Origin: Nymphaea colorata
Lineage: Eukaryota > Streptophyta > Magnoliopsida > Nymphaeales > Nymphaeaceae
Direction: 5' to 3'
Assembly: GCF_008831285.2 (NCBI RefSeq)
Contig: NC_045138.2
Span: 19,253,934-19,317,933, forward strand
DNA: 64,000 nt
A program made the translations under genes and the position numbers. Positions 13,546-39,720 of the stretch are shown here, in pieces; the stretch's first letter is position 1; each line of letters begins with the position of its first letter. The notes beneath the pieces are model-generated. The model was not told where the DNA came from and made no database searches. It worked only from the letters and a program-made list of their open reading frames with translations.

Positions 13546-13661
13546 CAGGGGCGAAGCTAGCATTTTCTTCAAGCCAGGCCCACGGTCCCCTCCCTCCGCC
13601 TCCCCTCCACCCCAGGTCGAAACCATGATTTGAAAGCAAGAACTGTGTGGGGAGTTAGGTC
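13546..13661 (+). mobile_element. Outer end of left inverted arm, hAT-like terminus
   Basis: Begins CAGGGGCGAAGCTAGC, close to the CAGGGGCGGAGC terminus I associate with hAT elements of the Tip100 type. The 116 bases up to 13661 match, in reverse complement, the outer end of the right arm (about 37123-37231). The flanking 8 bases on the two outer sides do not match, so a hAT-type target duplication is not supported. Confidence 0.55.
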
Positions 13662-14185
13662 TGTTGGCGTTCTCCCGCGATTCACACTCAATCTCCTCTC
13701 TTTTGGTAATGGCAAAATGAAGAGAGGGGACCGTAGACTGCACACACCAACGAGGGAAAGGAGAGGGAGCAGCAGTACTCGGGCAGAGAGAGAAGCAAGC
13801 TGCGTCTAGGGCAGCGTGAGAGAGAGTCAAGGACGGCAGGAGAGAGAGAATAAAGAACGAGAGAGGGAGGGAGAGAAAGAAGGAAACTTTCTTCTCCTCT
13901 TTTGGCGTTAACTTCTCAATAACTCATTTCAGTAAAAAGAAAGCTAACATTTAAAGAAAATAATAAAAAAAACTGATAAACTTAACGAGTAAGTTTAGCA
14001 ACTAGTAGATCGTGCTTTCTCACGATCCCTCCGCTTCAACTTTTTCAGCTTCCGCCATTTTCTCCACTCCTTATTAACTGCCCACTATTTGAAACCGCAC
14101 ACACTTTCTCTTGTTTCCACTTTTCACTCCTTCACGCACTCACGCTTTTCCCACGAGCTCCTCCACTTCAGGAGTTAGAGCAACA
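13662..14185 (-). repeat. 3' LTR of copia 1
   Basis: 524 bp, TGTTG...CAACA ends. Against the 5' LTR I see roughly 15-20 substitutions, a 7-base length difference near GCAAAATGAA and a rearranged stretch near 14,015-14,035. So the copies have diverged by a few percent since insertion. Confidence 0.93.
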
Positions 14186-14205
14186 ATCTCCCCCCTAATC
14201 CTGAT
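14186..14205 (-). other. Polypurine tract of copia 1
   Basis: On the minus strand the sequence just before the 3' LTR reads GGATTAGGGGGGAGAT, the expected primer for plus-strand DNA synthesis. Confidence 0.8.
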
Positions 14206-17200
14206 GTGGCCCGAGCTCTCGAACACCAAGTACGTGTCGCATTGTTGCCAACTTTGCCGTTGGTAATGCTTTTGTCATAAGATCCGCTCGTTGTTCATCT
14301 GTGCGTACAAAATCCACAATAATATGTCCTCTTTCGACACATTCCCGAATGAAATGGAACTTTGTATCAATGTGTTTACTACGTCCATGAAAAACTGGGT
14401 TCTTCATCAGTGCGATTGCGGACTTGTTGTCCACATACAACTTTACCACTTGCGGCTCTCTCCCAATCAGTTCGTCCAAGAGTCCTCTAAGCCAAAGTGC
14501 TTGACATGCCGCCGCAGTTGCTGCCATGAACTCAGCCTCGCATGAAGACAGAGCAACGGTCTTCTGCTTTTGCGAGTTCCATGAGACTAGGCTTTCATTT
14601 ACATAGAATGCCATGCCTCCGATGCTTTTTCGATCATCGACGTCGCCCGCCAGGTCACTATCCGTGAACCCGACAATCACTTCTTCTCCTTTTCCTCTGG
14701 TGTATACAAGACCGAAGTTGATTGTGCCTTTTAAATAACGCAAAATCTGCTTCACTGCTTTGTGGTGCATCACTGTCGGTCTCTCCATGAATCTACTAGC
14801 TACACCGACAGCATACAAAAGATCTGGCCTTGTGTGGACAAGATACCTTAGACATCCGATGAATCGTCGATACTCAGTTGCATCCACCGGTTGTCCTTCG
14901 GGATCCTTGTTCAACTGTGACCTTGGTTCCATAGGAATTTTAGTAGGATTGCAATCAAACATGCCAAATTGAATTAGTACCTTTTTGGCATAGGTTGCTT
15001 GTTTGATCCAGATACCGTCTTCACCTTGTTCCACCTCAATCCCAAGGTAATAGGTGAGCAGGCCGAGGTCGCTCATCTCGAACTCAGCCATCATCTGCTG
15101 CTTGAATGATGCGATTGCCTCCGAATCCTCCCCTGTTACAATTAGATCATCAACATAAACTTCGACGATGATACCAGTGCGGTCTTTTCCCCTCGTATAC
15201 ATGGCTTGTTCAAGCGCGCACTTTGAGAACCCAAGGTGCTTCAGGCTTCTATCCAGCTGCGTGTTCCAAACACGAGGTGCTTGTCGGAGGCCGTACAATG
15301 CCTTGCTTAGTTTGAGCACCATATGCTCCTTGTTCTTCACCGTGAAACCTTCTGGCTGAGTTACATAGACCTCCTCCTCAAGTTCGCCATTGAGGAATGC
15401 TGATTTGACGTCGAGGTGATGAACTTGCCACCCACGGTTGGCTGCGACGGCAAGGATGACTCGCACTGTGTCGAGCCTGTCGACTGGCGCAAACACCTCA
15501 TCGAAGTCGATCCCTTGTCGTTGAACATAGCCTTTTGCGACTAATCTGGCCTTGTGCTTGATCACCTCTCCGTCTGAGTTTTTCTTTAATTTGAACACTC
15601 ATTTGAGTCTGATTGCTTTGGTTCCAACCGGTAGGGTTGTCAGCGTCCAGGTCGAATTTTTTTCAATGGACTCAATCTCCTTGGCCATCGCATCCACCCA
15701 TGCCGGTTGGCCCATTGCCTCTTGGTAACACGATGGCTCCTCTATTGCCGCAAGCATGGCCTCTTCTTCGACGTCTTCAACATCGAGCTCGACATGCCGA
15801 GCGTCTCGCATGATATCATCTATATGTCTATACCGAACGGGTCCGTCATTACTGTCCTTCATCTCCGAGGTTGCGGCAGTTTCATCCGCCAGCAATCTCC
15901 GAGCCGGCGTCACCACCGGCGTTGCTTCGCCACCCATCGATGTCGATGAAGAAGTAGGGTAGCCTAGATCCATGGATAGCGACCTTCCTGCTTGTTCGCT
16001 TGCAACTGAGTTGTCCACTTTTGATTCATCCTCAATAGTGAAATTCGACGAATCACTGCCTCCTGCATCCATGTTCCAACTCCACTTTAATTTTTCTTCA
16101 AATTTAATCACGACTTACATGGATTCTCCCACGCCGCAGAACGAATAATCTGTGTGCCTTGCAGCCATCCTCGACGCCGAGATACACCATTGGCTGGCTG
16201 CGATCATCAAGCTTCTTGAGGTGTGGTGTTGTCACCATGGCATGCGCTGTGCAGCCGAACAATCGAAGATGTGCAAGATCCGGCTTCCTATGACTCCAAG
16301 CTTCATACGGGGTGCGCTCGCCCATGGCCTTCGTAGGCAAGCGGTTCAGCAAGTAAACTGCGTGTCGTACCGCCTCCCCCCAAAATCTTCTCAGCATGCT
16401 CATGCTCTTGAGGAGAGATCTTGCCATCGCCATCACCGTCCTGTTCCTCATCTCCACCACACCGTTTTGTTGTGGTGAGTATGACGCAGTGAGGTGTCGC
16501 ACAATGCCCGCCTGTTCACACACATTGGCGAACTCAAGAGAGAGGAACTCGCCTCCACGATCGGTCCGAAGCGTCTTGACGCGATGCCCGCACGCGTTCT
16601 CAGCCAACGGCTTGATCTTCATAAACGCCGAGCATGCCTGGTCTTTTGTTCTGATCACGCACAACCACATCCAACGAGTGAAGTCATCAACTATTAGTAA
16701 GAAATAGCTATTACCGGCAGGGGTGGGTGGCGTGATCGGGCCGCAAAGATTAGCGTGCAAGAGTTCGAGTGGCTCCTTCGCTCGATAGATGGCTGCCGAC
16801 GGGAACGACTGTCTCGTCTGCTTCGCCACCAAACACTCCCGGCATAACTGAGCGGGATGAGAGATAGGCGGTACCCCGGTTGCCATCTTCTTGTTTACAA
16901 GCATCTTCAATGCTTGAAAGTTGACGTGGCCGAGACGAGCATGCCACAACCATGCCGGATCCTCGAAGTTTGCCAAGAGACACACTGGCCTTGCAATCTG
17001 CAGCTCGATGCGATAGAGACGATTTGGCGTGCGTCTCACCTTCATGATCAACTGCCCTGGATTTTTGACAAATACCTCTAGTTTGTCTTCATCCATAACC
17101 ACCTTGTGGCCCACCTCAGTGAGTTGCCCGAGACTCACGATGTTGCTGCGAAGCTTTGGAATATAATATACTTTCTGGAGCAGCCATTGATCATCATTTT

Positions 17201-18470
17201 TGCATTTAAAAAGAATTGAACTCTTACCCATGATCTGCACCGATGAGCCGTCGCCGAACTTCACATTGCCGGTGATTGCCTCGTTCAACTCCCGAAACTT
17301 GACCTTGTCTCCGGTCATGTGGTTGTTGGCACCGTTATCCAGGTACCAGGTGTCGGTAGTTTCCTTACCGTGCTCGGTCCCGTGCAGTTCAGGCCATACT
17401 TGCTCTTCATTCAGCAGGACGGCTTCCTGTCGTTCCTGCCATTCTTGTTTCTCAGGTGCAGCGGGCATTGCTTCTTCCAACTCTGCAAGCAACAGAGTTG
17501 GTTCGGTGTCGTCAGTTTGTGTGAGATGCGCCTCTTCCTTCTTTTTGGGAGCCTTGCACCGGTCCGCATAATGCCCCAATTCGTTGCAATTGAAGCAACG
17601 GATGTGACTCCTGTCACGACCATCGCCTCCAGAGCCACTTGCTCTGTCCTTCAGTGGGAAGTCGCCTCGTCCACCTCTCCCGCGCCCTCTATCGCGCCCG
17701 CGACCACCCCGGCTGCGAACTCCTCCTTCCCTGTGACCCGTCTCCCTTCGGGTCGACGACGGGTCGCTGCCGCTTCTCTTCTGCCGTGCCTCCCACTCAG
17801 CCTGAGTGAGAAGCAGTTGTGCGTCGCCGTTGCCACCGGTACCGAATGCTCGGGGACAAGAGCGTTCTTCATACGTCTTGAGTCGTCCCACAGCCTCTTC
17901 AAACAACATTGTGTCGAGGTCGCAAAACTGCTCTATGCCCGCGATTACGCTAAGAAACCGATTTGGAACGGTGTCAAATAGCTTCTTGACTAAGGCAGCA
18001 TCACTCAGGGTTCCCCCTAAGTTGGCATACCTGACGGACATTCCAGTGAGCCTGCCCGCATATTGATCCAAGGACTCTCCTTCCTGCATCCTCATGGCGT
18101 CAAAGTCACTCTTCAACGTCTGCAGGCGTGCATTCCTCACGCGATCTGCCCCGACAAACCTCGTCTTGAGGCAATCCCAAACCTCCTTCGCTGTCGCCTT
18201 CTTCGCCACTTGCATTAGGAGATCTTCTGGGAGGGCTTGGAGAAGATGCGACCTCGCCTTCTTGTCCTTCCTCGTGTCGACAGCCACACCGGCCGTCGGC
18301 TCGACTGCCTCCCAAACACCTTGATCTTCCATCATGGCCTGGACCCTAATCACCCAACCGGTGTAGTTGGTCGCCGTGAGCAGCGGATATTGGAACGTCC
18401 CGCTGGCAATCTCCCGCGCTGCCTCGTTTGTGATGATCGACATCGGCTTGAATCGAGGGAGCTTTGGCAT
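14195..18470 (-). pseudogene. copia 1 gag-pol polyprotein, broken
   Basis: Start at the ATG 18470, just inside the primer site; the open frame extends upstream into the LTR but that part is not coding. Order by residue: gag 1-290, zinc knuckle CX2CX4HX4C at 292-305, protease DNGA at 378-381, GAG-pre-integrase near 505-560, integrase core 565-680, then RT (YVDD) and RNase H. Three defects are visible. A frameshift at about 16104-16115, right after the integrase C-terminal IHVSRD motif. An in-frame TGA at 15599-15601 where the family has Trp, at the start of RT. And residue 574 (codon 16749-16751) is Asn where the first catalytic Asp of the integrase DDE triad belongs. The RT and RNase H parts (14195-15598) remain open. 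Autonomous transposition is not expected. Confidence 0.93.
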
Positions 18471-18474
18471 ACAA

Positions 18475-18492
18475 CCTTGGCTTTGATACCAA
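18475..18492 (-). other. Primer binding site of copia 1
   Basis: On the minus strand, two bases after the 5' LTR, the sequence reads TGGTATCAAAGCC. It matches the 3' end of plant initiator-Met tRNA except for one position (A for G). Confidence 0.85.
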
Positions 18493-18493
18493 A

Positions 18494-19020
18494 TGTTGGC
18501 GTTGTCCCGCGATTCACACTCAATCTCCTCTCTTTTGGTAATGGCAAAATGAAAAATGAAGAGAGGGGACCGTAGACTGCAACACACCAACGAGGGAAAG
18601 TGCAGAGAGAGGGAGCAGCAGTACTCCGGCAGAGAGAGAAGCAAGCTGCGTCTAGGGCAGCGTGAGAGAGAGTCAAGGACCGCAGGAGAGAGAATAAAGA
18701 GCGAGAGAGGGAGGGAGAGAAAGAAGGAAACTTTCTTCTCCTCTTTTGGCGTTAACTTCTCAACAACTCATTTGAGTAAAAAGAAAGCTAACATTTAAAG
18801 AAAATAATAAAAAAAATTGATAAACTTAACGAGTAAGTTTAGCAACTCGTAGATCGACGATTCCTCAGCTTCAACTCTTTCAGCTTCCGCCATTTTCTCC
18901 ACTCCTTATTAACTGCCCACGATTTAAAACCACACACACTTTCTCTTGTTTTCACTTTTCACTCCTTCACCCACTCACGCTTTTCCCACGAGCTCCTCCA
19001 CTTCAGGAGTTAGAGCAACA
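18494..19020 (-). repeat. 5' LTR of copia 1
   Basis: 527 bp with TGTTG...CAACA ends, abutting the AGGTC target duplication at 19021. Being on the minus strand, this right-hand LTR is the promoter-bearing one. Confidence 0.93.
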
Positions 19021-21132
19021 AGGTCGTTTTCCATTTCGCACCCAGTTTGGTAGCTTATCGATTCATCTCATCAATTCTATCATCCACCACTTAATTTGTT
19101 TCTCAATGTTACATGTGAAAACCAAGTTCAGTTTTGACTCACACCATGATCAGTATCGATTATCAAAATGGTTGTCTGGTTGATCACAAGATCACGCGGT
19201 CTCTGTCTCTCTGGAGCAGTACCAATCGCGATCGATCAACTCATCAGACTTTCATGCCGCATCAACTTGGTGACATTTCGAAAACACCCACAGCCAAAGT
19301 GAACTGAGACTATCAGAATGATACTTGTGAGATTGTTAACTTTCATCTTGGGTATCTTTCGCTCAGGCTTCTTCATTTAGAACATCATCGTCTCTGGCTT
19401 CTCCGTCCAGAAGCTGCCCAAGTCCACCGTTTTGGGGCATATGATATGAATGTTTAGGTATCATTGTATGGTAGGCCAGAATTCTGAAGGAACAGAGGTT
19501 GAATTTCGCCGAGTCCTGAAAGTTTGTACTAGATAATTTTTGTACTTCACTTGGTTACGCCTAACTTCATACACATGGCTTCGTTTCATCTCATTTGACA
19601 GCATTGCTTCCTACCAACTTAATTACAATCCAATATTTTCTTCCACAATTAGTGGTCTCGGTAGGCTTAAAAGTTTGATCTGATCAAGTCTTCCTGGAAT
19701 CAGAGCCGAGCCTTTACTCGGCTACCCTGAGCCGTCCACGTGGATGGCCATTTTTTTTTAATAGTTCAAGAAACAAAGCGTCCGGAGGAGGAGGAGGGCT
19801 CCTCCCTCGGCGGTCTCCCCGCTAGCTGCGGAGCGACAGCCCCGCCGGCGAGAGGAGGCGCCGCCGCCGGCCCTTCCTTTTCTGAGAAATGGGAAGGGAG
19901 TTCAGGGGTGGGCCACCGGCGGCCTCCCCCGATCTCGCCGGAGGGCCGGCGGTGAGGGACCGCCCGCCGGCGAGATGAGGGCCTCCGCCGGCCCGTCCTT
20001 TTGTGAGAAATGGGAAGGGGGTTCAGAGGTGGGCCTCCTTCGGCTTTCCTGTCTCCAACCCGTTCGCCGCTGGGGCGGAATCCGGTGGTGGAGATAGTAT
20101 TTGTTAGATTACTGAATTATAATACTATATATATATCCTATTGCTAAAAGTGGTTCCCAACAAGAAATCTTGCAACAAAGAAAAAATCTAATTTACTCAA
20201 TGACAAACAATTATAATTGATCAACTTTAACTTTAATAGTTAATTTAAAAAGGCAAAAAAAAAAAACTCGCCCTTTGGGGTGAAGGAACATCCTACAAAG
20301 AGGCCCTAACCTCATACTCCATGGCTCAATATATCATATATTAGTGTAATGTTTCTTCATCATTGGCATAGACCAGTTTGCACTGTAGTGTTGTCATATC
20401 ATTAAATGGTATTCTCGATGTCAGTATATTTAATTTGGATAGGATGTTTAATTAAAAGATTCAAATTTGAATATATATAAATATCTAATTTGATTTAGTT
20501 TTTAAAAGATATTTTATATCAAATGATTTTACATTTTAAAAATCGGTCAGATTCTCAGTGATTCCGACACAGTGATTCGCACCTTGTTTTTCAAATGAAC
20601 CAAAGGGTTTCCACTTTTCTCTGTTTGAACCATCCCCGGTGGTCATTCGGGCGTAACGAGTGGCTGTTAAGTCAGGGATTTCACGAGTGGAGCCATAACC
20701 GTCCGATCGATAACGATCGATCGGCTTAGATTTTAAAATAGAAAACGGAAAGAGAAGGAGAGGGGGTCTCCATCTCGTCGCTCATTTCCCCTACTTCACT
20801 CTCTCTCCTCCCTCACGCTCTTCACCCCTTTTCCCAATTCTCAGCACTCTCTTCTGATGCACTCTCTATTGATGGAGGCCACAGCTGTCAGCAACCATTT
20901 CCGACCAAGAAAACGGTGATCGCGACGAATTTACAGGTATGCCTCTTCCCTTCTCTCTCTCTCTCTCTAGTTTTGCTTGCACCATTTGATGTGTCATGAC
21001 TGATTCCCTTTATTTTCTTGTTTATTCGAATCTCTCTCTATCTCGTAAATGGTGCTATTGATTCACTGGCATTGAAAATTTAGTAGTGAGGCCTCCAAAT
21101 TGAGGTTTATCAGAGTGGTCTCTAGTTAATTA
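19021..21132 (+). repeat. Left inverted arm, inner part
   Basis: Reverse complement of about 35022-37127, clearly over 90 percent identical by eye across its length. The inner edge is sharp: both arms agree up to GTCTCTAGTTAATTA and then diverge. Contents: a GC-rich block with two copies of a GAGAAATGGGAAGGG unit (19770-20060), an AT-rich stretch (20095-20560), a GGGCGTAACGAGTGG box, and a pyrimidine-rich leader-like segment ending in CAG/GTATGC, a good splice donor, at about 20937. No long ORF, so I read it as non-coding or as a captured gene 5' end. Confidence 0.85.
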
Positions 21133-24100
21133 GGCTTGCATATTGGATACAAGGTAGACATCTTCCTCCTTTTGTGAGCGAGAACAAGAGAATTTGCCTC
21201 AGACCATCTCTCTAGGTAGAGAGAGATGGCTTCGGATTACTGTTGTTTTAGATGCTTCACTTCTAGAAGATGGTCTTGTAAGGATGAGCTCTTTATCTCA
21301 CCCACACAGAAAAACAATTGAAGGGAAGGTTTTAATGTTGCTTCCGAATGGGTTCGTAGAGAAGCACAATAGCTCATTGAGTTTCGCCCTCAAGAAAACG
21401 TGGAGTTCTTGAGTTCGTGGGAGTTCTTTAGCTGCTTCCTACCTTATGATAAAGTAAGCCAAGAAAACTGTAATAGTCTTCTTCTGAAGGAGTGACGTGC
21501 AATTATCAATACAGTTATTAGTTGTTTAGTGCAAGTTGCTTGATTCTACGGTGCTTCGTGTTGCATCTTTGCTAGAATTTAGCTTTATTTTGTCCTTCAA
21601 AATAAGGTGATTGATACGAGTTAGCACCACAAACCGAGCACTTAGGCAAGTCCAATATACACATGGGAACTGGCAAAATGACTCATTAAATATATGGTGC
21701 ATGTAAGAACTTAAAAATTAAAAAAAAAAATCTTATGTAAATTAATTTTATAGAAAGTGAAATGCTATTTCTAAGGAACAAATCCATCTTTATCAAGAAA
21801 CATGAATTGATAACCTTAGGTCTGGTTTGATCTGATGAAATTCCTGCCTCAGCGGATTCAACCTAAGAGGCATGAAGGATAAGTTAAGAAAGTGTAAACT
21901 TGAAATCTAACCGATATCCTCGAATTACAAGGTCGCCGCATAGATGGAATAATGAAAAACACGATGCTTCAGAAGGAATTAGCAGATAGGAACTTTTGCT
22001 GTAACGCAAGTTTAGATACCATAGGATAAAAATTTCGTATCTCATATGCAAGGAAATAAATGCGTAGCTAACATTAAGGACTGAAATTTCACTTTTAATA
22101 TGAATATCATAATGCCACGAGTGAATACAATCATAATTTTGTACTTCTGAAGTATCTAGTAACACGAAATAACATCATGTTTACAATGGTTCAGTGGTAA
22201 AAAAAACAAAAAGGCAAAAAGCCGATGTAAACATTGTAAAGGTGGGCTTTCTCAGCATCTTGCTTTCAATTCAACATAATCATAGCCTTGAGACAGTTGA
22301 ACCTGTCATAGAAGAAATGGGACAAGTTATGGTCTCTGCTATTACTGCTAAATCAGAATATTTACAATAGGCAACAAAAATGTGGAACCACTAGTTACCA
22401 TGATTTGTTTGCCAAGATGAATTCCCTAACTTTATGCGCCAAGATGGTGCTTCATCTGAAGTGATGCACCATGGTCACCATTTTAGGACGGATTTGAATA
22501 GATGATAGCATCATGCAAAATACACAATCAAATACTCATCTCACATGTAAACTTTACCATTCCCACCCTTGGCGAGGTAGATATTTCTAAGCCACTGGAG
22601 AGCAAGCTTGTTTAAGAAATGAATATTGTGTGCATTATCTGATCTGCTTGAATGTAGAATAACACTTTTGAAGAAAAGAAAAATCTTCTAGATACTTCAT
22701 TTTGCTCGCAAGTGCTTGATAGGTGATCTGCCTAGCTAGCAAACACGTGAAGGATCATAGAGATGAATTCCAAGGCAAACTCTTTCATTTATTGGTATGC
22801 GTCCTATATGCATAGGACATTTCTTCGAGATACATGAGCTTGTAGTATCAATATGATTTGTGGAAATTCTCTTTGGTGGTAATATGATTGGGACCATTTT
22901 AGCTAAAGGACCATGAATTTTTCTTGGTAGGGTCAACCTGGATTGAGGCAAGGAATCCTTGGGCCTTTCTAGTACACCTCTATCATCTCATAATGAAATT
23001 TCTAGCATTTTCAGTTATTAAATAAATGAAATGTTAGTTTCTCAAGGTAGGGATAGTAACTCGATCAGTGGTTGTCCTCTTGAGACTGGTCAACTGTTTC
23101 AGTCCAAATGACCCAAGTGTCTGACCAGACAGATAAAGGGAAAAAATGAAAAATAGAAAATACCTGAAAACAAAAAAAGCAAACCAACTGCACATTAGAA
23201 TTGCACCAATACCCTTACATATATACCTATGGTGCACTATACAGTATGTACATACTATTTTGTGTGTGTGTGTGTGTGGCACTGTGTGCATATTAATGAA
23301 ATATATATACACATATATAAAGAGGACACATGTGTTTAAATATAAAAATCTAACACAGCAGATCTAGACATTGTGCTTAGCTCACAATCTTATAGAGAAT
23401 GGGTTACATGGAAATATGAAATCCCAATCGAACATTGAGGAGAAAACCCCACCCAGCTTCTTGGTAAAGGTATCTCCAGGTTTTTTCTTCCACATGTAGG
23501 CCATTCCATATCTTTTTATCAGTTCTGTCATTGCAATTTTTATGCCTTTGACCTCATCATGGTTGATATATGCGGAAGGAAATGGTTTTTTTTTTTTTTT
23601 TTTTTCATTTATTTGATGCTTATCTCAAACTGATTGAGGACAGATTTTGATGGATATGATCCGTCCATTTTCAGTCAGGTTCACATCTCGAAAAGGTTCA
23701 CAAACCAAGGCACAAGGTAGTATAAAATTCAGGTATATGTCATTCAACTTTCCTAAAGTTATAGATTCATGATTAATCTCAAACCACGTCGATACTCAAC
23801 ACTTAATATGTCATCACTAGCTCCCTTGAGGAACAGGAGTCCGGCTTGTTATGACTCACAAGTTGTCATTTCTTGCCCTTATACTATATTAAGGTCATAG
23901 TAACAAATAACGTTTCAGAGTTTTAAACGACGAGGTTTTTCTCGGGTATATATGGCGAGATTCAAAAAACCAGGAAAAATATGGTAAATTTTTAAGAACT
24001 TAAAAAACTAAAACTGGGAGAAAAATAAAATAAGTGAAAGATTACTAAAACAAAAATGAAAAAATAAGTCGACTTGCAGCAAATAAAAAATAGAAAGTAA

Positions 24101-25069
24101 ATAAATTGTTTGGCATTAAGGAACATGAAAAAAATGAACAAGCGAAAAAAAACCTTTTTGTTTTTTGTGACACTGATTAAGGTGAAGTAAGTGAATGCAG
24201 TAGCTAATATATTGCTTAGTATAAGTTGTTATTGGTTCTTGTGTTATACAAGAAACTAAACCAGGATATCTGTCTTAGGCAAGCAAGTGTTTTGGTATAT
24301 TTAGATAAAGTAAATGAATGTGTTAGATTGCACATCCCAGCTTGTAACTTCCTGGAGTCCTCGAGGAAGTAAAACCAAAACCAATGTTGTGAAAGGTGTA
24401 TCGTCGGGCCGACCTATACACACATTGTAAGCAAATCGCAAATATATTTTATATTTAATTTTTAATTCATAAAAATGAGAAAAATAGACAAAATTAAGAA
24501 AAATGTGTTCTATATAAAAAACTCATTACATACATAATGGACATTCATGATTTATCTTTCATAAGTAATGGCACATTAACAAAAAAAAAGTTTAACTGAA
24601 CTTTAGGGTATTTTACGTCACATCAAAACGTATAACCCATGTTCGTTCACTGCAAATGAGAATTGAAATAATGTTTATGAATAAATAACAATCATGATTA
24701 TTATCAATCGATACAATAATCATTATCTTCTTCATCTTCATCCTCGTCCCTTCAAGCTTGTGATTTCTTCCTTAAGACAATGATTTCTTTATGAGGGACA
24801 TCGGACCTCTTTTTGAAAAACAGAACCTTAACATAAGATATGGCCTGTATGGCCGGATACACGGGGACGATGCACTTGCATTTTTGTGTATCGTGCTTGT
24901 ATCATATAGGTTTTTCGGACGTATAGGATACAGATTGTAAGATATGGTTGCATGTCATAAGATACAAATAACACCGAGTAAAGCTGTATCTGTCCTTTGA
25001 CATGGACTTTTTCTTTTCTTCTTTGGGTCACGGCATTATACTAGTAAGTTGGCGAAAAAAATAATTGAG
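21133..25069. other. Inter-arm region, no supported gene
   Basis: AT-rich with scattered short ORFs. The one at 21194-21412 (+, 72 residues) follows directly on the arm edge and might be an exon, but shows no known motif. There is a TG microsatellite at 23261-23278 and a T-run at 23587-23605. 24.4-24.6 and 24.83-25.0 kb contain repeated GTATCGT/GATACA words like those in many plant transposons, without identifiable ends. Confidence 0.4.
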
Positions 25070-25627
25070 CATTACATGTGGTAGTCATTGGCAAATAAGA
25101 TTTAAAAGGTCCAAGGCAGTCAACGAAAATCTTGGGTCTAGATTCTTCATCCTTATTACTAGATTACATCAACCTCGGTCCCATGATGCGAAGGGGCAGA
25201 TCCGCATTCTTTCAGCCATATGAAGAGGCCAAGAGGCTTAAAGGCCAGGTCTATGATCGTGGGAAGTTATTGGGCACAATAACAATGGGTGAATGCTCAA
25301 TGTTTCGAGGCCAAAAAGGTCACTACTAGTCTACTAGGACTGCTGCGGAGAGACTATGGACCGCATCCATGGCAGGTGTATCCTGAGTATGGAGTGACTA
25401 ACGTAAAGTCCCAAATTCCAGCACAATTCGCAATTTATGTTGGGTGAACGCATAGCGGAAGCATGGGGTACTATGGATGTCAACAAGGACCACAAGATGT
25501 CCCTTGTTGAGGAATTTGAAGATAAAACAGAAAGCCGATTATGGCAAGCCCAAGACCGTGGACGTAGAGGTGGTAAACTCGTAGTAGGTGACTATGGAGG
25601 GAGCCAAGGACTGCCTATACAGCAAAG

Positions 25628-25733
25628 GTCCTTGTTGAGATCCCTGCCAATAGACAATGGACCTACTCTAAACCAAGAGTGTCCTTGTTGAGATCCCTGC
25701 CAATAGACAATGGACCTACTCTAAACCAAGAGT
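25628..25733. repeat. Perfect 53-bp tandem duplication
   Basis: Units 25628-25680 and 25681-25733 are identical base for base and begin GTCCTTGTTGAGATCC. The lack of differences implies a very recent event. Confidence 0.9.
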
Positions 25734-26967
25734 GCATGGTGGGTGCGTCAGATGACCGGTTGTGTGGCATAGATCGGAATGGGTTGAAACCATGGACCCT
25801 TGGAAAGAGCCAAGAAAGAGCTTGGGGACAAGCTCATTTTGAGGAGGGTGGATCTGTTACAGGCCAACCTTCGAGACTGCCGAGAGACGTCGAGATGCAT
25901 GGCCTAGCGCATTGCGAGGCTAAGGCATTGCAAGGCTTTAGTGCTCAGTTGGTCGGGAGAGTAGCATATAGCAGCCGAACGTCTAGGGAGGCTAAGGAGG
26001 GAGATGACCAGCTGCATGTCACAGTAGGACGCTTGGGGGATTGTGAGGTTATCACACAAACTATCAACATCCTAGGCGCAATTGAAACCCGAGGACATGC
26101 ATGATGTGAGTTTATTTCGAGCGAGGCAGCCACACCCATTGTGGGCCAGACCGTCAAGGTATTTTGTTGTGAAGCTAACGGTTTTCTTAGCCCATGTGTA
26201 GTAGGCGTTCAGGAGCCAAGGGAGGCTAACCGCGGCAAGCACCAAGAATCCGAGGGAGATGCGGGCGACGACGTCCACGTGAATAGTGAGGTTAAATCCT
26301 TCACTATAGCCACAACCACCAAAGAGACGAATGCTACAGTGCTCGGGCGAAGTGAGGCTACCTTCCTCACCCAACTCTAGCCACTCGTACTCGAGCGGAG
26401 TCTAGAGGGCCCATCACACCAGGCCTAGCATGAGGAAGTGTTCAGTCGTCCAGAACGGAGACAGACTGTCCTCAGACCGGAATGCTTTGGACAGGACAGT
26501 ACTGACCATTCAGGAACAGGAGGACTAGGACAGACTGCACCAGGACGGACAGTCAGCCCAGGAACAGACTGTTCCAGGTCAGAGAGACAGCACCGGGATG
26601 AACTGAACAATACAGGGACAGGAGGGCCAGGCTGCACCTGGACAGACAATCAGCGTAGGAACAGACTGTTTCGGGACAGAGGGACATTACACTGGCAGAC
26701 TCGACAGCACAATGACATGCAGGAGGAGTTGAGGCGAGGACACCAAGACAGTCCCGTTTGAAGGCCACCTAGACCGAGTTTAGGTGAAGTGGGTTTCGCC
26801 CAACTAGAGCATCACAGCAGGGAGTTATCACAGGCGTGAGTTCGGAGTGAACTCAGTAGAGGTTTACCGACTCGGTTTGATATTTTGTACAGCTTATTTC
26901 AATACTGGTTCTTTTATTTCTGTAGCGTCTCGGTACGAGACAGGGCACGTCCCGGTCGCGCCTAAGC

Positions 26968-26974
26968 TATATAA
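26968..26974 (+). promoter_or_regulatory. Candidate TATA box in LTR-like sequence
   Basis: TATATAA within an AAGCTATATAAGCTT palindrome, in the putative LTR. A GGTAAGTG donor-like site lies about 190 bases downstream (near 27160). Only sequence context supports it. Confidence 0.35.
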
Positions 26975-28960
26975 GCTTAGGGATGAGTGTAATAACTTAA
27001 GTTTTTATCAACGTAGTCTTCTTGGAAGGAGTGTTGGTTTGAAAGTCTGAAGCTTCTTCTCCCGCGAAGAGTTTCAGCCATGGTGTTCCTGTAGCACCAT
27101 GACCAAAAACCTCAACAGAGGTCTGCTTCCGGCGACCTGCGGCTAGGTGCATTGATCGGTAAGTGTGGATGGCGATCGAGCAGTGATTCCATTCCCTATT
27201 TTCATTCGAGAGAGATTGAACTACCGTTCGGGTTCTTCAACCATAGAGGAACCGAGAGGCGATGTTCGATCATAGGGAGGCAGAAAGGGATCATCGACCA
27301 TTTCTGAAGCCTCAACGGTGGCTCTCTTCCGGCTAGGCGCTCAGCCTCAACGGCAGATCACCAATGGATAGGTTACCTTGACTGAAACCAGCCAAGAAGA
27401 AGGTGTCGATTGACATTTTTGTCATTCACATCCGAGAGTCTCCAGTCTTGAAGGTAAATATCGATACTCCAGCGATTCTACCTTTGGGGATTCTTGTTCC
27501 GATCAATGTCTTCAACGGGAGGAGTTCCTGTGCGCATCCCAGCTAGTTCTGGCCTAAAGCACCGGCTATTCCAACCGGTATTTCATTGATTGAAGGACTG
27601 ATCAAACGTGAAGAGCGTCTCGATCAGCACATTCAGTTCTCCTTCGGGCGAACGGTCTAACACTGATTCCAGACAATCCCACGCGAGTTCAGCCAAGGAG
27701 ACTTCGTCCATTCAGTTTTCCGGATTATTATCTACCTTCTGGGCGAGTTTCGTGGCAATTGGAGGAGGAATCGAAGGAAAAAAGAACGGGAGAACCAGCG
27801 CTGCTGTCTTCCCCTGTTCTGCCTCCCAGACACCTCTGATCAGGCGGAAATCTGTAGATATTGGGAGGGTCTGTGCACAAACGGACTTCATGGTCATCTC
27901 CCAAACTTCTCAACGGAGATTCTGAGCCAAGAATGAGCGAAATCCGTGAAGGCTTGAGAGAGTTATGGCTTTTGGACGGAATCCGGCAATAGCTGGCAGA
28001 GCTGAAGAACAACTCGCCATTGGTTTGGCGGATCCTTGATTTCTGGCCTCTGAAGCGATTTCCATTCGAACCGGTGTGTTAATCTTGCTCCTTCTATTCT
28101 TAATTAGGGCTCTGAACTGTTAATTTGCATTGTTGAGCTCGATTTGGGGTAAATCCCCAATTTCTGTGAAGAATCGACTAGAGGAGCTGCGGTCTACTCT
28201 ATTCAACACCTGTTCTGAAGTGCGACAACCTGGAGGATTGAATCTCAACGAGTGACCAGTAGAGAGCTCGAATTGAGGTAAAACTTGGGGCGTCTACTCC
28301 CTGGGATGTCCCCAACCTTCAGACAAAATTTCAGCTTAATCGGAGTAGAGGTCGAATTTCTGTGATTTTTTGAAGTGCGACAGGTTCTGTGATCAGCAGT
28401 CTGCTACCCTGTCTTCTGCATTTGCTCAGAACAGAACCGAACTGTGTAACAGTTCGGCACCTTCATCGATCAACGAGTGACACTTAGGGTGCTCAGATTG
28501 CTGCCATTTTTGGAGCGTTTGTTCCTAATCATAAGAGGAAGCTACAGTCCAAATTTCAGCTCATTCTGAGCTGTGGGTGATTTTATATAGATTTTGAAGT
28601 TCGAGGCACCCGGTGAGTCATCTGAACCTGCTTGAAAGCTGCAAGATTTTCGCCTGGATGCCCAACGAGTGGGCTATGGAGGATTCGGTTGGAGTCCATC
28701 TTCTGGGCATCCCTTCATAACCATTTGGAGGAGCTGCTCACCAATTTTCAAATCAATCGGAGGCCCGGATGATTTTATACGAATTTTAGAGTTCCGCCCC
28801 CTCCTGTGAACAGAGACAGGTGCCTCCTGCTCTTGCTTGGTCTAGTCGGACTTGTCCTGGCTTAATTATTTGGGCATCGATGTTTCAGGACTTCGATTAG
28901 CCCCCTCCAATTGATTCTGGGAGTGTTAGAGTCGGCCTTCGGCACCGTTTTTTGGCCGCA

Positions 28961-30040
28961 GCTGGGACCGGCCCTAGATGGTGGTAACTGTTAGCTTTTC
29001 TAGGTGCAAGTCTATTCTCAACTTCTTCCTACCTATGTGTACAGGAGTCACCAAACAGGCCACTGCACCTAAGTTAACTTGGTTATGGCATGGTCTCTAG
29101 TTCAATTTTATAGTTGTCTTTTAGATATATATATATATATATATATAAGATTATTTTGTTTACATGACCCTTGCTGAACCGACGTCCAAGTTCTTTTGTG
29201 ATAGCCATGCTTGCACCAAACCTGCATTACGCCCATGCTTATTATTTGCCTTCTTAATGAACGAGGGTGGTTGCATGTGGAAACCCTAAGTTCATGAGTT
29301 GAAGGTGACTTTGTTATCAATGTTAACGACCGACAGACACTATCTCAAATGTAAGATCAGACTTCTGATTTGACTGATCCTTACCTGCTCACATCCTATT
29401 TTAGTCTGACAAGGCAGACTATAAACCAGGTGACTGGGGTGGTAAGATTTACCTATATATGCTCCTGAAGAGTGAATGCAGCACATCTTTTGTTGCCTTC
29501 ATATATGAGATGTTAGACATTCCATCTCGCTATCTGTACAATATACGGAGATATGTTGTATGAGGCTGGTCATCCATGTTCAAACGGATTTTGCTATTCT
29601 GTACCAGTTGTCTAGTAGTTTAAAGATATATTGAGGATGAAGTTGAATGTTTAATTGTAATATGTTACTATACCATGTTTTAAGTGTGTACTTTCTTCTG
29701 AATGTCTTCGGTGCATGGGTACTTGGTACTTACTGTTTACACAAAAACCTGAACATCATCTCTTGCTGTTGTTAGAAACAGCAGCTTCGGTGTGCTGTAT
29801 GGGAAACTGAAACACTTTAAACTGACACTTACGCTTTAGCCACCTACGCTCAAAAGATCAACCCGCATGCCCAGACCTTCTATTATCTTAAAGGAGTATT
29901 GTTGTGGATTGGCCACTCAAGATGGACCCAACCTTTCATCTACTGGAAAGAAGTCCTCGTCGAGGTATCCTCTTTCACAAGTCGTCCCTTTTTCTGCTTC
30001 TCATCAGCTCACACAGCATACTTGTTAAACATTTCACATC
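28961..30040. other. Intergenic, no supported gene
   Basis: Mixed composition, a TA microsatellite at 29124-29148, and no ORF with a recognisable product. Confidence 0.4.
29124..29148. repeat. (TA)n microsatellite
   Basis: About 12 TA units. Confidence 0.9.
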
Positions 30041-30322
30041 TTCTAGTAGTCAAGCTGAGTTTGATCCAAATTAGAGAATGGCTATGCAAACTAAAATTAA
30101 AGCATTAAAAGCTAATAAAACTTGGGATCTAGTTGAACCTCCAAATGATATTAAACCCATAAGTTGTAAGTGGGTTTACCACATCTAATACAAAGCAAAT
30201 GGCCAGGTTGAAAGATTCAAGGCAAGATTAGTTGAGGGTATGCACAAGTTGAAGGTATTGATTACAATGGAACATATGCACCAATAGCAAAGTTTGTTAC
30301 GGTTGATGTCTTCTACCAATTC
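30041..30322 (+). pseudogene. Copia reverse transcriptase fragment
   Basis: Translating the plus strand from about 30041 gives the N-terminal RT region of a plant copia polyprotein: an AMQTKIKALKANKTWDLV segment, then CKWVY, then ERFKARLV, then in another frame YAQVEGIDYNGTYAPIAKF. Two in-frame stops (at the DPNW-type Trp near 30072 and after VYHI near 30186) and a frameshift near 30238 show it is dead. No LTRs or further pol sequence are attached, so it is a truncated remnant lying between the inverted arms. Confidence 0.85.
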
Positions 30323-30328
30323 AGTCGG

Positions 30329-30399
30329 CAATTCTTGATCTAGTGGCTGGAGTTACCGATTCAAGAAATCAGCCAATTCTTGATCTAGTGGCTGGAGTT
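30329..30399. repeat. Short tandem duplication, period 45
   Basis: A 26-base segment beginning CAATTCTTGATCTAGTGG occurs at 30329-30354 and 30374-30399. It follows directly on the copia fragment. Confidence 0.8.
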
Positions 30400-32860
30400 T
30401 TGGTGCTGACTAGCTTTGGGTCATGACTCATGGCCCAGTAAAAATTCACTCATAAGCCAATCGGGCGATTCCCAAATCTATTCCCCCGGCCAACAATAGA
30501 TAAAAAGTACAGAACTGATTAGGATGAGTTTGCTTCGTCTTCGCCTGAATCTAAGTATCGACATGACTCACGAACAGGCTTCTTTATAAAAAACAATACT
30601 AAAATAAATAGATAAAAAGTACAGAACTTATTTGTCGTACAAAAAAAAAAAACCCAGCTGGACCTTTTGGATGGGACCCCGGCCTTAGTTTTGGGCTACC
30701 AAAATAAGGGTAGCTTTTGTACTTTTATCTATCATTTAAATATTTTTTTAAAAAATAAAAAACGACTCTCATCTTTTATATTTTATTATTAAAAATATTT
30801 TATGTTTAAAATTTTATTTTATATTAAAAATTATTTTTTATTATAATCGAGTTAAGCTCGATCTCTGTTGGGTTTTCAAGCATGGAATCCGAGCTTCCAT
30901 GCTCGGGTTTCAAATATTGAGCCAGCCCGAATCGGCTTTTGTGGGGGCAAGCACAATGCCCACGTGTAGTTGAAACCCAATAAGCTTTTGATAGTTATCA
31001 AGTCTGCAGCACAACAACGTCGTATAGTACTCAGCACAAACGAAGGAAATTTTCCTCTGAAAGCTTTTGAGAGATCAATAAATGTTGGCAAACCTCAAAA
31101 CTATCATACTGCTGTGTAGGCAACAGCAATACTTATCAAAATTCATCTGAATTGGAAGAAATTGAAAGACAAATAGTATTTATAGGTTACAAATAACATA
31201 ACACCCTTACACTAACTGGCGGGTTGACGCATTTCCCATTCTTGGACAAGTTCTAATTTACATCATAGCAGTTTAAGAAGCACATTTTATTCCATCGGGA
31301 GTGTAACCTCATGTGGTTCTATTTTCATCCTCATCTAGCTTGACAACCGCAAACCATCTTTTTTATCGCTCCTCAAAAACGAAAACTGAAAGATGATCAT
31401 ATAGAAACAAAATAAAGACAAATTTCAAATTTGAAACTAAGCTTCAAACTTCACAATCAGAATTTGGACATGAAATGTACAAATTCAAAACTTAAAAGAC
31501 TTCAATGATGAATTAGTAAAATGACTTAAAATTTGAAACACATAAATTTTGACTGGATTAAATTCAAACATGAAATCAATAAGTGAAGCTTAGAAATCAC
31601 AAAAATAAGGTTAGTAAGCAAATCTAATTTCATGCATAATGTCAAAATCTCAGGACTGAAATGTGAAACTGATCTTCGAGTAAAAACAAAATAAGCACTT
31701 CAATTTTAACAAGCCTTTTGATATCAAGTACATCAACGAACCCAAAATTTTGGAAGATCAAACCTATAAATATGATTGAAGAATCCAAAATTATGGTTAA
31801 AACATAAATTAACACAAAATGTGAAAAATTAAAACTTAACTTTGAAATATGCCCATGGAATTGAACCAAAAAGGTGAAATCCAATTAAAATTTAAAATGT
31901 GCAATTCATAAATTAGAAGTATGAAATTTTGATTGTTTTTAAGACTGATAATTGGATTCAAATCACAATTTCAAGTTCACAAAAAACTTTCTATTTTAGT
32001 CCAATTTCAATGTTGAATTTTAAGACGTAAGCAGAAACTTAAATCCAGCATCCAGCTAAGAGCATTGATGCTCAAGTTGGATACTACTTGGATGCAAAAG
32101 CTGGAAATCGGTTATCAGGTTTCTCGTTATCATTGAAAGTTCTTTTATCAAAATTTTCGAATTTGATTCAAAAGTTTTTCTTGAAATTCTAATTTGAAAA
32201 CCCAATGAAATTTTTGGAGATGAATAAACAACTTTGAAATTTGAAATTGTGGAAATTTAGTGTTTCACACAAGATTTTAACAAAAGCATGGGCCATCTGA
32301 CCCGTTTTACGCAAAGGAAGCATATTCATAGTGGTTTGTCAATGCTTCCCATGCACGTGAATTTACGAGTTCATAGATGAATTGGATCCTAGTAAAATAT
32401 ATAATTAGACGAGCATATGCACGTCATGTTGGCTATAAAATAACATAGTGATGTAAGGTCCTACTGACTACTTTCATTATTTCAAGTACAAGCTTTCAGA
32501 TATATGCAACACACCATACAAGAACAAGTATTTAAACAACACAAGATCAAGAAGTCTGAAGCAAATCATGGAACTTGTTTCATAATGGTTCCTTATATAG
32601 AGGGATAACACAAGAGTTATATTGCAAAACATGCTGGAGAGGGAATCTTCAGCAAGAAAGAGCTAAGGAAATTAATTTAACAATTGCTAGACAAGCTCCC
32701 TGTAATAATAAACTAAGCACAAAAATATGGCTCCAGAAGACGACGAGAAAAAAGGAAACCGCAATTACACTCTCCGCAAATACCTTGAATAGTTTAGGGG
32801 AAAAGAATACCAAGAAGAAGAAAATTGAATAGAACACAAAATAGAACATTACAAACGTGA
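30400..32860. other. AT-rich DNA, no supported gene
   Basis: 31.38-32.28 kb is dominated by AAATTTGAAA, AAACTTAAA and similar words, without an open frame. Composition and vocabulary resemble the complement of 54.3-55.1 kb. 32.45-32.85 kb looks transcribed-like but has only an 85-codon ORF with no motif. Confidence 0.4.
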
Positions 32861-33519
32861 GACGCTAATCTAGATGGAAGAGGATCAGCAAAAGCAAAAT
32901 CAGAGAAATGGGAGGAGAAATTGGGTTCCGACGACGAATTTTTGCGCAAGGGTGCTTGAGGTTCAGGTTCAAGGAATTAAGTAGAACGTATATAATAAAT
33001 ACAAGTGCCAAAAAAAGGGACCCGTATACATCGATCCACTATCTATTATTGATAGCTGCATGAAAAAACAAAGGGGAAAATAACATAAAGAGAATGGCCA
33101 ATGTTGAGTGGGACTTGTTTCTTTCCCCTGATTTTCACACAAGTAAACGTAGAAACACAGGTGACTCCAACAGTGAAATAAGAATAACAAAGAAAGAAAT
33201 TGAAGATCCCTACTGTCGAATTTCACGGACTGCCGCAGACAAAGAAGAAAGCGAAATAGGCCGGCATTAATTGAGCAAGAACATGAGAAAAGGAAAAGAC
33301 CGAATCCCATTAACAAAACCGCCAACGTTATAGGAAGCTCTCAGAACCCTAATTCTCAGATAGGTAACTGGGAAAAAGCACGAAAAGCAAGTCTCTTCGA
33401 CAGATCGTCAATAAATCAAGAGAATAAACGATAAGAGGTGAAACTTGGCCAATCTCACTGACTAGCTGAGCAAGAGATAAAACAGAAATCTGAGATTAAG
33501 AAAACAATGCTTGAAAAGG

Positions 33520-34403
33520 CAAAATCTCAACAAGAAAACGGTTAATGTTGCTGGAAATTTGTCGTGAAAAACTACGCGATAAGCGATTGGAAGAAAGGCA
33601 GTTATTGCAAGTCTTCTTCATGATCCACAGAATTTTTCGCTACAATAAATACGATCACCATAAGCCAGCAAAAATGGAAAAAGAACAGCCAAAAAGGAAA
33701 GACGATACCTCACTGAACCGCCCAAAATCACCACCATAGGAAGAACGAAAAGTTGGGGATCAAACCTGATGCATCAGCCATCGCTGCATTGCGATCAAGA
33801 AGGAAAGGTTGCCTCGCTTCATACTGTCTAGATGAGGAGAAAGAATGTCTTGTGGTTGTGGATAGGGATTATTATTTCTTGATGATAAAGTCTATTGGTA
33901 GGCCGACACAATCTGGAAGAAATAAGAACAACCATTAGTGAATAAACGCATATTTCTCTCCAAAATGAAAGAGAAATATGCGATCTAGAAAAGAAAGAAT
34001 CCGAAAATCCAAAATGTCAACAAGATAACGATTAACGTTGCTTGAAATTTGATCTGGAAACCTTAATTCTTCGACATGCAGCAGGAAAAAACCACAGGTA
34101 TCACATGTTTCCTTCATATATCCACAAAGACTTCTCCCAATTACAAACGTTAATGCAAACAAACAAATAGAAGAAGAGAACATAAAAGAAATCGACAAGG
34201 GATGAAACTACACCTACAAGACATCGACAACTGTTCAAGAAAAGAGAAAAATGATTACCAAAGGCCACCAAGATCGTCAACAAAGAATCTCCAGAAATGG
34301 GTCGATCGGCAAGAATGTCAAGCAAGACTATGATTCTTTCAATCTATTTAGTTGGTGAAGAGAAGATTACGAAAGGCCACCAAGATCGTTAGCAAAGAAT
34401 CTC

Positions 34404-34410
<7 letters not shown>
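33520..34410. repeat. Degenerate direct repeats
   Basis: A segment reading CAACAAGAAAACGGTTAATG at about 33530 recurs, diverged, at about 34017, with further matches downstream (period near 487). Separately, AAGGCCACCAAGATCGT occurs at 34261 and 34373 (period 112). The minus strand carries TTAGGGTTCTGAGAG near 33340, the style of a plant 5' leader, so an unresolved minus-strand gene is possible. Confidence 0.5.

Positions 34411-34437
<27 letters not shown>
34408..34437. repeat. (CT)n microsatellite
   Basis: About 15 CT units at the downstream edge of one of the direct repeats. Confidence 0.9.
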
Positions 34438-34440
<3 letters not shown>

Positions 34441-34749
34441 CTCCCTCTTTTCCTCCAGAAGGCGGCTGGAGTGGATTTAAAGGTGGGCAAGGCGGAAATA
34501 AATGGTTCAGACCCAGTGTCCAACATTTATTGATCCAATTAAAACGTTTCAGTTCAGAGCGGGACTGAACTGAATCAGCAAACAAAGATTATTCCGGATC
34601 CAAACTCTCTCTCGAGACGCAGTGGCAGGATCCAAACTCTCTCTCGGACGGCAAGCACGTCATCGTTGCCCCTTCGAGGCCCTGCGGAGAGGTAGTCTGT
34701 TTTAATCAGGTTCAGCCAACGTCAACTCTGTTTCTCTCCTTCTCTGTCT

Positions 34750-35021
34750 TACTAAAAAGTCGGGCGTAACCAGTCGATGTAAGCCAGGGATCTCACGGGT
34801 GGGGCCATAACCGTCCGATGCAGGTGGGTGGGCGATGATGGAGGGAATGAACGCTGCTTCTCTTGATTTTTCTATTCCTCACCGTTTTTTGAAGAACTTC
34901 GGACCCAAACGATGTTTTTCGTTTTGTTTTCTTTGTGACATTCAAATCTCTCTCTCGCTTTCTGTGTGTCAGCCCCCATCTGCAAATTCTTTCACATTCT
35001 GTCATTGTTTGGTTCTTTCTG
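34750..35021 (+). repeat. Diverged third copy of an arm segment, plus orientation
   Basis: 34750-34820 carries CGGGCGTAACCAG, CAGGGATCTCACGGGTGG and GCCATAACCGTCCGATG. It matches the left arm at about 20645-20712 in the same orientation and the right arm in the opposite one. Further on, CAAATCTCTCTCTCGCTTTCTG resembles the left arm near 21030 only loosely. The stretch directly abuts the inner edge of the right arm. Confidence 0.6.
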
Positions 35022-37231
35022 TAATTAACTAGAGACCACTCTGATAAACCACAATGTGGAGGCCTCACTACTAAATTTTCAATGCCAGTGAATCAATAGC
35101 ACCATTTACGAGATAGAGAGAGATTCGAATAAACAAGAAAATAAAGGGAATCAGTCATGACACATCAAATGGTGGAAGTAAAACTAGAGAGAGAGAGAGA
35201 GAGAGAAGGGAAGAGGCATACCTGTAAGTTCGTCCCGATCACTGTTTTCTTGGTCGGAAATGGTTGCTGACAGCTGTGGCCTCCATCAATAGAGAGTGCA
35301 TCAGAAGAGAGTGCTGAGAATTGGGAAAAGGGGTGAAGAGCGTGAGGGAGGAGAGAGAGTGAAGTAGGGGAAATGAGCGACGAGATGGAGACCCCCTCTC
35401 CTTCTCTTTCCGTTTTCTATTTTAAAATCTAAGCCGTCCGATCGTTATCGATCGGACGGTTATGGCTCCACTCGTGAGATCCCTGACTTAACAGCCACTC
35501 GTTACGCCCGAATGACCACCGGGGATGGTTCAAACAGAGAAAAGTGGAAACCCTTTGGTTCATTTGAAAAACAAGGTGCGAATCACTGAGTCGGAATCAC
35601 TGAGAATCTGACCGATTTTTAAAATGTAAAATCATTTGATATAAAATATCTTTTAAAAACTAAATCAAATTAGATATTTATATATATTGAAATTTGAATC
35701 TTTTAGTTAAACATCCTATCCAAATTAAATATACTGACATCGAGAATACCATTTAATGATACGACAACACTACAGTGCAACTGGTCTATGCCAATGATGA
35801 AGAAACATTACACTAATATATGATATATTGAGCCATGGAGTATGAGGTTAGGGCCTCTTTGTAGGATGTTCCTTCACCCCAAAGGGCAAGTTTTTTTTTT
35901 TTTTTGCCTTTTTAAATTAACTATTAAAGTTAAAGTTGATCAATTATAATTGTTTGTTATTGAGTAAATTAGATTCGTTCTTTGTTGCAAGATTTCCTGT
36001 TGAGAGCCACTTTTAGCAATAGGATATATATATAGTATTATAATTCAGTAATCTAACAAATACTATCTCCACCACCGGATTCCGCCCCAGCGGCGAGCGG
36101 GTTGGAGGCAGGAAAGCCGCAGGAGGCCCACCTCTGAACCCCCTTCCCATTTCTCACAAAAGGACGGGCCGGCGGAGGCCCTCATCTCGCCGGCGGGCGG
36201 TCCCTCACCGCCGGCCCTCCGGCGAGATTGGGGGAGGCCGCCGGTGGCCCACCCCTGAACCCCCTTCCCATTTCTCAGAAAAGGAAGGGCCGGCGGCGGC
36301 GCCTCCTCTCACCGGCGGGGCTGTCGCTCCGCAGCTAGCGGGGAGACCGCCGAGGGAGGAGCCCTCCTCCTCCTCCGGACGCTTTGTTTCTTAAACTATT
36401 AAAAAAAAAAATGGCCATCCGCGTGGACGGCTCAGGGTAGCCGAGTAAAGGCTCGGCTGAGTTTATGTTCTGATTCCAGGAAGACGTGATCAGATCAAAC
36501 TTTACTACCGAGACCACTAATTGTGGAAGAAAATATTGGATTGTAATTAAGTTGGTAGGAAGCAATGCTGTCAAATGAGATGAAACGAAGCCATGTGTAT
36601 GAAGCTAGGCGTAACCAAGTGAAGTACAAAAATTATTTAGTACAAACTTTCAGGACTCGGCGAAATTCAACCTCCGTTCCTTCAGAATTCTGGCCTACCA
36701 TACACTGATACCTAAAGATTCATATCATATGCCCCACAACGGTGGAGTTGGGCAGCTTCTGGACGGAGAAGCCAGAGACGATGATGTACTAGATGAAGAA
36801 GCCTGAGCGAAAGATACCCAAGATGAAAGCTAACAATCTCACAAGTATCATTTTGATCGTCTCAGTTCACTTTGGCTGTGGGTGTTTTCGAAATGTCACC
36901 AAGTTGATGCGGCATGAAAGATGAGTCGATCGATCGCGATTGGTACTGCTCCAGAGAGACAGAGACCGCGTGATCTTACAACCATTTTGACAATCGATAC
37001 TGATCATGTGAGACAAAACTGAACTTGGTTTTCACATGTAACATTGAGAAACAAATTAAGTGGTGGATGATAGAATTGATGAGACGAATCGATAAGCTAC
37101 CAAACTGGGTGCGAAATGGAAAACGACCTAACTCCCCACACAGTTCTTGCTTTCAATCGACCCGAGGCGGAGGGGAGGCAGAGGGAGGGGACTGTGGGCC
37201 CGCCCTTAAAGAAAATCCTAGCTTCCCCATG
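35022..37231 (-). repeat. Right inverted arm with empty copia site
   Basis: Reverse complement of the left arm (13546-13661 plus 19021-21132), with the inner edge at 35022 and the outer end near 37231. The outer end, read inward on the minus strand, is CATGGGGAAGCTAGGATTTTC, a slightly damaged version of the left CAGGGGCGAAGCTAGC terminus. GACCT at 37123-37127 is the single, unduplicated copia 1 target. The GC-rich block is at 36080-36390 and the splice-donor-like CAG/GTATGC (minus) at about 35221. The RLP gene starts only 160 bases beyond the arm. Confidence 0.85.
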
Positions 37232-37390
37232 ATTTCAATTATCACAATTTTTTAGTGACTCTATGATCGCCTCTAGAATCACTTTGTGCACACAACTATC
37301 TGTTTTTTCGTGTTTTTTTTTCTTGCTGGTGCAGCACTTGAAGTCATGAGTTCTAACTGATCTCCAATTTCTTTGCACAGGACGTCGGCG

Positions 37391-39703: not shown

Positions 39704-39706
39704 AAG

Positions 39707-39720
39707 TGGTATCAGAGACA
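39707..39720 (+). other. Primer binding site of copia 2
   Basis: TGGTATCAGAGACA starts three bases after the 5' LTR. The first ten or so bases are the standard initiator-Met tRNA complement. It is followed by four short GGTTAGC(A/G)CC units. Confidence 0.9.

Follow-up and report, generated by a model that had tools for sequence, protein, structure and literature searches.

How did a stretch of about 2.2 kb come to stand twice, in opposite orientations, beside an LRR gene, with a Copia element in one copy and an empty site for that element in the other? We considered this question in a window of 64 kb, the whole stretch of DNA analysed (C1:19253934-19317933), where Pfam matches mark LRR genes, a DUF247 gene and Copia-type elements, a combination that suggests a flowering plant. 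All coordinates are those of the window, with negative positions lying upstream of its start, and the genome searched comprised 407.8 Mb in 783 contigs. It is clear that the 2.2-kb stretch was copied in inverted orientation beside the LRR gene along with a 12-kb upstream piece, and that Copia is present in the original copy only. The locus is thus a real mosaic segmental duplication near an LRR gene, with a Copia nested in it, and is an ordinary kind of plant rearrangement. The reading that we favour, with a probability of roughly 0.5, is that a composite insertion of at least 14.8 kb (22458-37231) arose beside the LRR gene and would have been patched from several templates by replicative repair.

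Inverted arms with a filled and an empty Copia site

The inverted arms of about 2.2 kb, reported in the earlier note as lying some 14 kb apart, are borne out by self-BLAST of the window and by pairwise alignment with exact ends. The features of the two arms are as follows.

13546-13661, + strand: left arm, outer part up to the Copia insertion point (inverted match to 37231-37125)
13546-13618, + strand: hAT-like MITE remnant, about 73 bp, forming the outer tip of the left arm (missing from C6 in the alignment)
13657-13661, + strand: target-site duplication AGGTC, copy 1 (direct reading)
13662-19020, - strand (coding): Copia LTR retrotransposon (LTR pair and Pfam), reading frame interrupted
19021-19025, + strand: target-site duplication AGGTC, copy 2 (direct reading)
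19026-21132, + strand: left arm, inner part, judged the older copy (flank and outer 330 bp continuous in C6)
20676-21022, + strand: promoter- or first-exon-like stretch, inward-pointing (BLAST-conserved at C1:10.7 Mb)
35022-37124, - strand: right arm, inner part, judged the derived copy
37125-37129, - strand: empty Copia site, single GACCT (AGGTC on the - strand; direct reading)
37157-37231, - strand: MITE remnant forming the outer tip of the right arm (two of the three other genomic copies have the family end start at 37231/37232)
37232-39015, + strand: 5' region and first part of the LRR gene adjoining the copied material (paralogue similarity; LRRNT_2 and LRR Pfam matches)

Self-BLAST matched 19021-21132 to 37129-35022 in inverted orientation (95.7% over 2132 columns, E=0) and 13541-13661 to 37236-37125, also inverted, at 82%. 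When aligned, the inner arms (19026-21132 and 35022-37124) showed 2036 matches, 47 mismatches in about 2083 sites and 9 gaps, which corresponds to a K2P distance of 0.023 (s.e. 0.003), and the outer arms (13546-13661 and 37125-37231) showed 95 matches, 11 mismatches and 3 gaps. The arms are spaced 13.9 kb apart. Among the 42 genome matches listed (the best 40 of 118 candidates scored), no full-length arm was found elsewhere, the two arms were the only matches longer than 400 bp, and the longest others measured 323 bp (C6) and 297 bp (C1). We consider an assembly artefact that misjoined two haplotypes very unlikely, as the 214 kb joined from adjacent genome pieces around the site hold no N and hence no scaffold gap at the junctions, the arms differ by the 47 mismatches and 9 gaps given above, and on each side the derived pieces adjoin different sequence.

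The element at 13662-19020 begins with TGTTGG and ends with AGCAACA. Its LTRs (13662-14185 and 18494-19020) align with 497 matches, 16 mismatches in about 514 sites and 5 gaps, and its Pfam domains fall in separate ORFs, with gag, rve in the ORF at 16107-18767 (-) and RVT_2 in the ORF at 14198-15598 (-). With TG...CA LTRs, a 5-bp target duplication and the integrase core ahead of RVT_2, the element shares the LTR pair and the gag, integrase and reverse transcriptase order of Ty1/Copia elements, and apart from its interrupted reading frame there is nothing unusual about it. Direct reading supports the claim that Copia sits between AGGTC repeats in the left arm with a single GACCT at the equivalent position of the right arm, which reads GAGTTAGGTCGTTTTCC and carries only one AGGTC. 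The pairing of a filled with an empty site holds up outside this locus as well, since the C6 homologue provides an independent second empty site, with AAGTC in place of the AGGTC of the arms. Related empty sites, that is, paralogues without an insertion, serve to define the exact borders of transposons, and the insertion-free paralogue here likewise shows the Copia borders exactly; it differs from the usual case in being inverted and 18 kb away on the same molecule.

The earlier note also held that the two sites fix the order of events, and this part was too strong. Duplication followed by Copia insertion is the most parsimonious order and the likely one, but it is not fixed, since a right arm copied from a Copia-free template allele would look identical. 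If Copia inserted after the duplication, the LTRs should not be a more diverged pair than the arms. The LTRs are not significantly more diverged (16/~514 compared to 47/~2083, Fisher p=0.26), yet the divergence gives no support to the Copia-second order, since the K2P distance between the LTRs (0.032, s.e. 0.008) is no lower than that between the arms. It is this last point that speaks for a Copia already present in the left locus, with the right arm copied from a Copia-free allele or the arms homogenised later. We regard such a history as unlikely, though hardly far-fetched, given that the difference is not significant and that more assumptions are needed than for insertion after duplication. 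A filled and an empty paralogue alone cannot date a duplication.

Older and derived sequence at the outer ends

A homologous locus on C6 (16.19 Mb) is collinear in one run with 13307-13542, 13616-13656 and 19023-19335, and a three-way alignment shows that it lacks both Copia and the MITE-like insert of about 70 bp at 13546-13618. Since the C6 locus is collinear with the left flank as well as the arm, the left context is older. On sequence comparison, then, the outer end of the left arm is established as ancestral context, and we judge the left arm to be the older locus and the right arm a partial, derived copy. Measured against this single 300-bp outgroup, four arm changes are specific to the left and two to the right. 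At the inner end of the left arm, 20676-21022 and 21258-22182 are both about 66-70% similar to sequence at C1:10.7 Mb, in opposite relative orientation, which faintly suggests that this end may be old context too. The subpart 20927-21055 is also conserved at C7:6.3 Mb by BLAST, and 20676-21022 and its mirror in the right arm look like a promoter, first exon and splice donor.

On the other side of the right arm, the LRR gene resembles two paralogues, at 89.6% for 37243-37999 compared to 60197-60953 (self-BLAST of the window) and 88.8% for 37243-39015 compared to 70811-72593. Both paralogues continue upstream with unrelated sequence, of which no further copy was found in the window. A second LTR element (39016-44541) splits the LRR gene, with LRR coding sequence before 38.7 kb and after 44.5 kb. 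It is flanked by AGTGG on both sides and has LTRs (39016-39709 and 43854-44546) that are 99.1% alike, so it is younger than the Copia at 13662-19020.

The similarity between the arms ends at, or within about 5-8 bp of, the MITE tip, which is also where the 5' region of the LRR gene starts. A genome query returned three MITE copies outside the locus, on C8, C4 and C7, which have an end of about 44 bp in common. The C8 and C4 copies match the query from position 14 (window 37232) and the C7 copy from position 23; the latter is an element of about 200 bp with inverted ends, which the C8 and C4 ends match. The family is short and dispersed and has inverted ends, as a MITE should, and the hAT-like label rests on its CAGGGGCG terminus, which we take to be typical. 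Compared to the 8-bp target duplication of hAT-like elements, the flanks of the left MITE (GCAGAAAC and GTCGAAAC) are alike at 6 of 8 positions, and the C7 copy has a 6-bp flank repeat, CTCAAG.

The tips (13546-13618 and 37157-37231) are far more diverged than the remaining arm sequence, with 11 mismatches in 72 sites of the MITE parts, and comparing the whole outer arm (11/106) to the inner arms (47/~2083) gave p=7e-5 for a region that was chosen after being seen. Within the 44-bp end, 9 mismatches separate left from right, and 6-9 separate each of them from the three other copies, with the placement of the right tip uncertain. On the other hand, both MITE parts are shortened in the same way, a form of which the genome query gave no further example, share one base that is absent in the three other copies, and have GTCGA on their inner side. 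The anomalous divergence suggests two separate MITE copies, the shared features a single inherited insertion. Gene conversion may possibly have kept the arms alike and spared the MITE tips.

The interval between the arms

Three pieces fill the interval between the arms.

21133-22457, + strand: joining segment between left arm and copied spacer (21258-22182 has about 70% similarity to sequence at C1:10.7 Mb, in opposite orientation)
22458-34594, - strand: inverted copy of C1:19218238-19232074, 44-70 kb upstream (five aligned blocks)
34595-35021, + strand: filler of 427 bp containing a 60-bp arm-like piece (20647-20707)

The joining segment has no second copy in the 214-kb region. A genome query with the filler returned three matches only, to itself and to the 60-bp piece in the two arms, and so gave no source. 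This 60-bp stretch forms an inverted repeat (34760-34819 and 35451-35511, 88.5%) near the inner end of the right arm and also occurs at 20647-20707.

When 28100-35021 was used as the query, a near-identical inverted match was found at C1:19218238-19225384. Several indels interrupt the copy of the upstream source at 22458-34594, and substitutions are spread unevenly over its five blocks (35/3826, 9/422, 20/375, 125/4129 and 34/2614; 223/11366 in total). The middle block (25084-29513), with 125/4129, is about three times as diverged as the flanking blocks, with 69/6440 (p=9e-13), which could possibly reflect conversion, faster change or a replaced block. At 22458 the upstream source runs on into sequence that recurs in a third copy at about -68 kb, so that at this end it is the window copy that is derived. 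At the other end, 31408-34591 is homologous to C13:7215203-7218255 (68-80%) and stops within 3 bp of the right border of the spacer at 34594. Since this older block ends at 34591, the direction of copying at 34594 is not clear, and the block may be an undescribed mobile element. The upstream source itself lies in an older direct duplication (about 75-92%) at about -72 to -58 kb and -30 to -10 kb.

We also considered the spacer as a coding gene and rejected this, as neither a coding gene nor a transposase was found in the five of six frames of 21133-34594 that were scanned (Pfam, with X at stops); these frames gave a single weak RVT_2 match (E=4.8e-5; 23.5 bits, below the cut-off of 31.6).

Proposed template-switching repair and its rivals

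Since all of the traced pieces were copied in one direction, we think that the arrangement suggests template-switching repair. Read leftwards from 37231, the right arm corresponds to left-locus positions that rise from 13546 to 21132 (+ direction), and beyond the filler the copy corresponds to positions of the upstream source that rise from -35695 to -21859 (again + direction). The pieces are thus joined from several nearby templates, namely the left arm and C1:19218238-19232074. Under the composite-insertion reading, a break would have occurred in the 5' region of the LRR gene and would have been extended by copying the left arm first, then the filler and then the upstream segment, with Copia entering the left arm once the duplication had occurred, or else in an allele other than the template. 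Examined for microhomology, the right outer junction, the sole one with both partners known, has CAGAAA in the left flank and in one of the two LRR paralogues, but not in the other. Against this account, the divergence of the MITE tips exceeds what a simple shared copy would show (p=7e-5), and the window did not yield the more upstream LRR 5' sequence that should lie beyond the insertion. The uneven divergence of the blocks argues for more than one event or for later conversion, and the C13 block ending near 34594 hints at the end of an element and not at a random switch.

A serious rival, and one that we hold to be a real if tentative possibility, is that at least two events took place, with an older inverted duplication of the left arm by the LRR gene and a later insertion of 12 kb between the arms. 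The flanking blocks of the spacer are about half as diverged as the arms (69/6440 compared to 47/~2083, Fisher p=1.2e-4), which favours this rival, but divergence in the mid-spacer block (125/4129) matches or exceeds that of the arms, the pooled divergence of the spacer equals that of the arms (223/11366, p=0.39), and the single copying direction of both pieces would be a coincidence. A further rival, possible but on the doubtful side, is recombination between two MITE copies, one of which already lay in the LRR 5' region, so that repair switched to the left locus within the MITE. This would account for MITE parts that are so much more diverged than the inner arms, for left and right ends that are as far apart as either is from the three other copies, and for LRR paralogue homology that reaches near the MITE edge; the shared shortened form, shared base and inner GTCGA point instead to one insertion inherited by both.

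We give almost no credence to a giant TIR transposon with the arms as 2.2-kb terminal inverted repeats. Both outer ends do coincide with a hAT-like CAGGGG / CATGGGG terminus, but there is no direct target duplication (the 8 bp outside the tips read GCAGAAAC on the left and ATTTCAAT on the right), C6 carries the left flank and arm as one continuous stretch that lacks the MITE, and the genome matches listed (the best 40 of 118 candidates) include no full-length arm other than these two. No transposase was found in the five of six frames of 21133-34594 that were scanned, and we reject this candidate on the flanks, the C6 continuity and the number of arms. A simple inversion, or one inverted block of arm plus spacer, was likewise rejected, as the order of pieces in the window, with the upstream segment first and the arm second, is unlike that of an inverted block with a deletion. 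The observed order could in principle come from a circular intermediate.

For composite insertion by repair there is a described counterpart. PMC8277862, on animal TIR elements, describes gap-filling, or fork stalling and template switching, with nearby fillers as typical of the process. What it describes for Pack-TIR elements shares with our locus the copying of nearby DNA beside a TIR element end, a single-copy product and sources on the same chromosome, whereas our locus is longer, draws on several templates and is not enclosed by two MITE ends. In its narrowest form, the composite-insertion reading would have one multi-template repair event, at or beside the MITE tip in the LRR 5' region, build the 14.8-kb mosaic from at least two sources (the left arm, then the 13.8-kb upstream segment) in one direction while preserving the empty Copia site, and this we put forward tentatively, as rather unlikely. 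If it were true, the gap-filling of animal TIR elements would also work, at larger scale, in plant LRR gene clusters, and a common origin of all junctions would make the locus a plant example of multi-template repair next to a TIR element. At present the locus illustrates known processes, and it offers a compact example of an LRR cluster gaining upstream DNA, with the source, copy, direction and empty site on one chromosome.

The earlier note further proposed that transcription across both arms would yield a hairpin of about 2 kb, a possible siRNA source; a functional source of this kind we find highly improbable. Inverted duplication has been proposed as the origin of plant small-RNA genes, and the arms are long, 95.7% identical and, as in such genes, inverted and of similar sequence. 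However, unlike in such genes, the arms are 13.9 kb apart and no protein-coding target was identified as their source. The exon-like stretch from about 20.7 kb points inwards in both arms, so a transcript from it would probably pair over at most about 0.4 kb and would need to cross 14 kb. The observed/expected CpG ratio reaches 0.84 and 0.85 in the two arms, whereas the spacer has 0.66, the second LTR element 0.39 and the LRR gene 0.29-0.48; the arms are thus not CpG-depleted, and nothing in them hints at long-standing heavy methylation. Rfam gave no matches anywhere in the window.

Elsewhere in the window, an ORF of 175 codons at 2742-3266 has no Pfam match and has similar-looking ORFs at about -56, -41 and -5 kb, and an ORF of 494 codons at 51674-53155 looks intact, with a full-length DUF247 match (E=5.7e-100).
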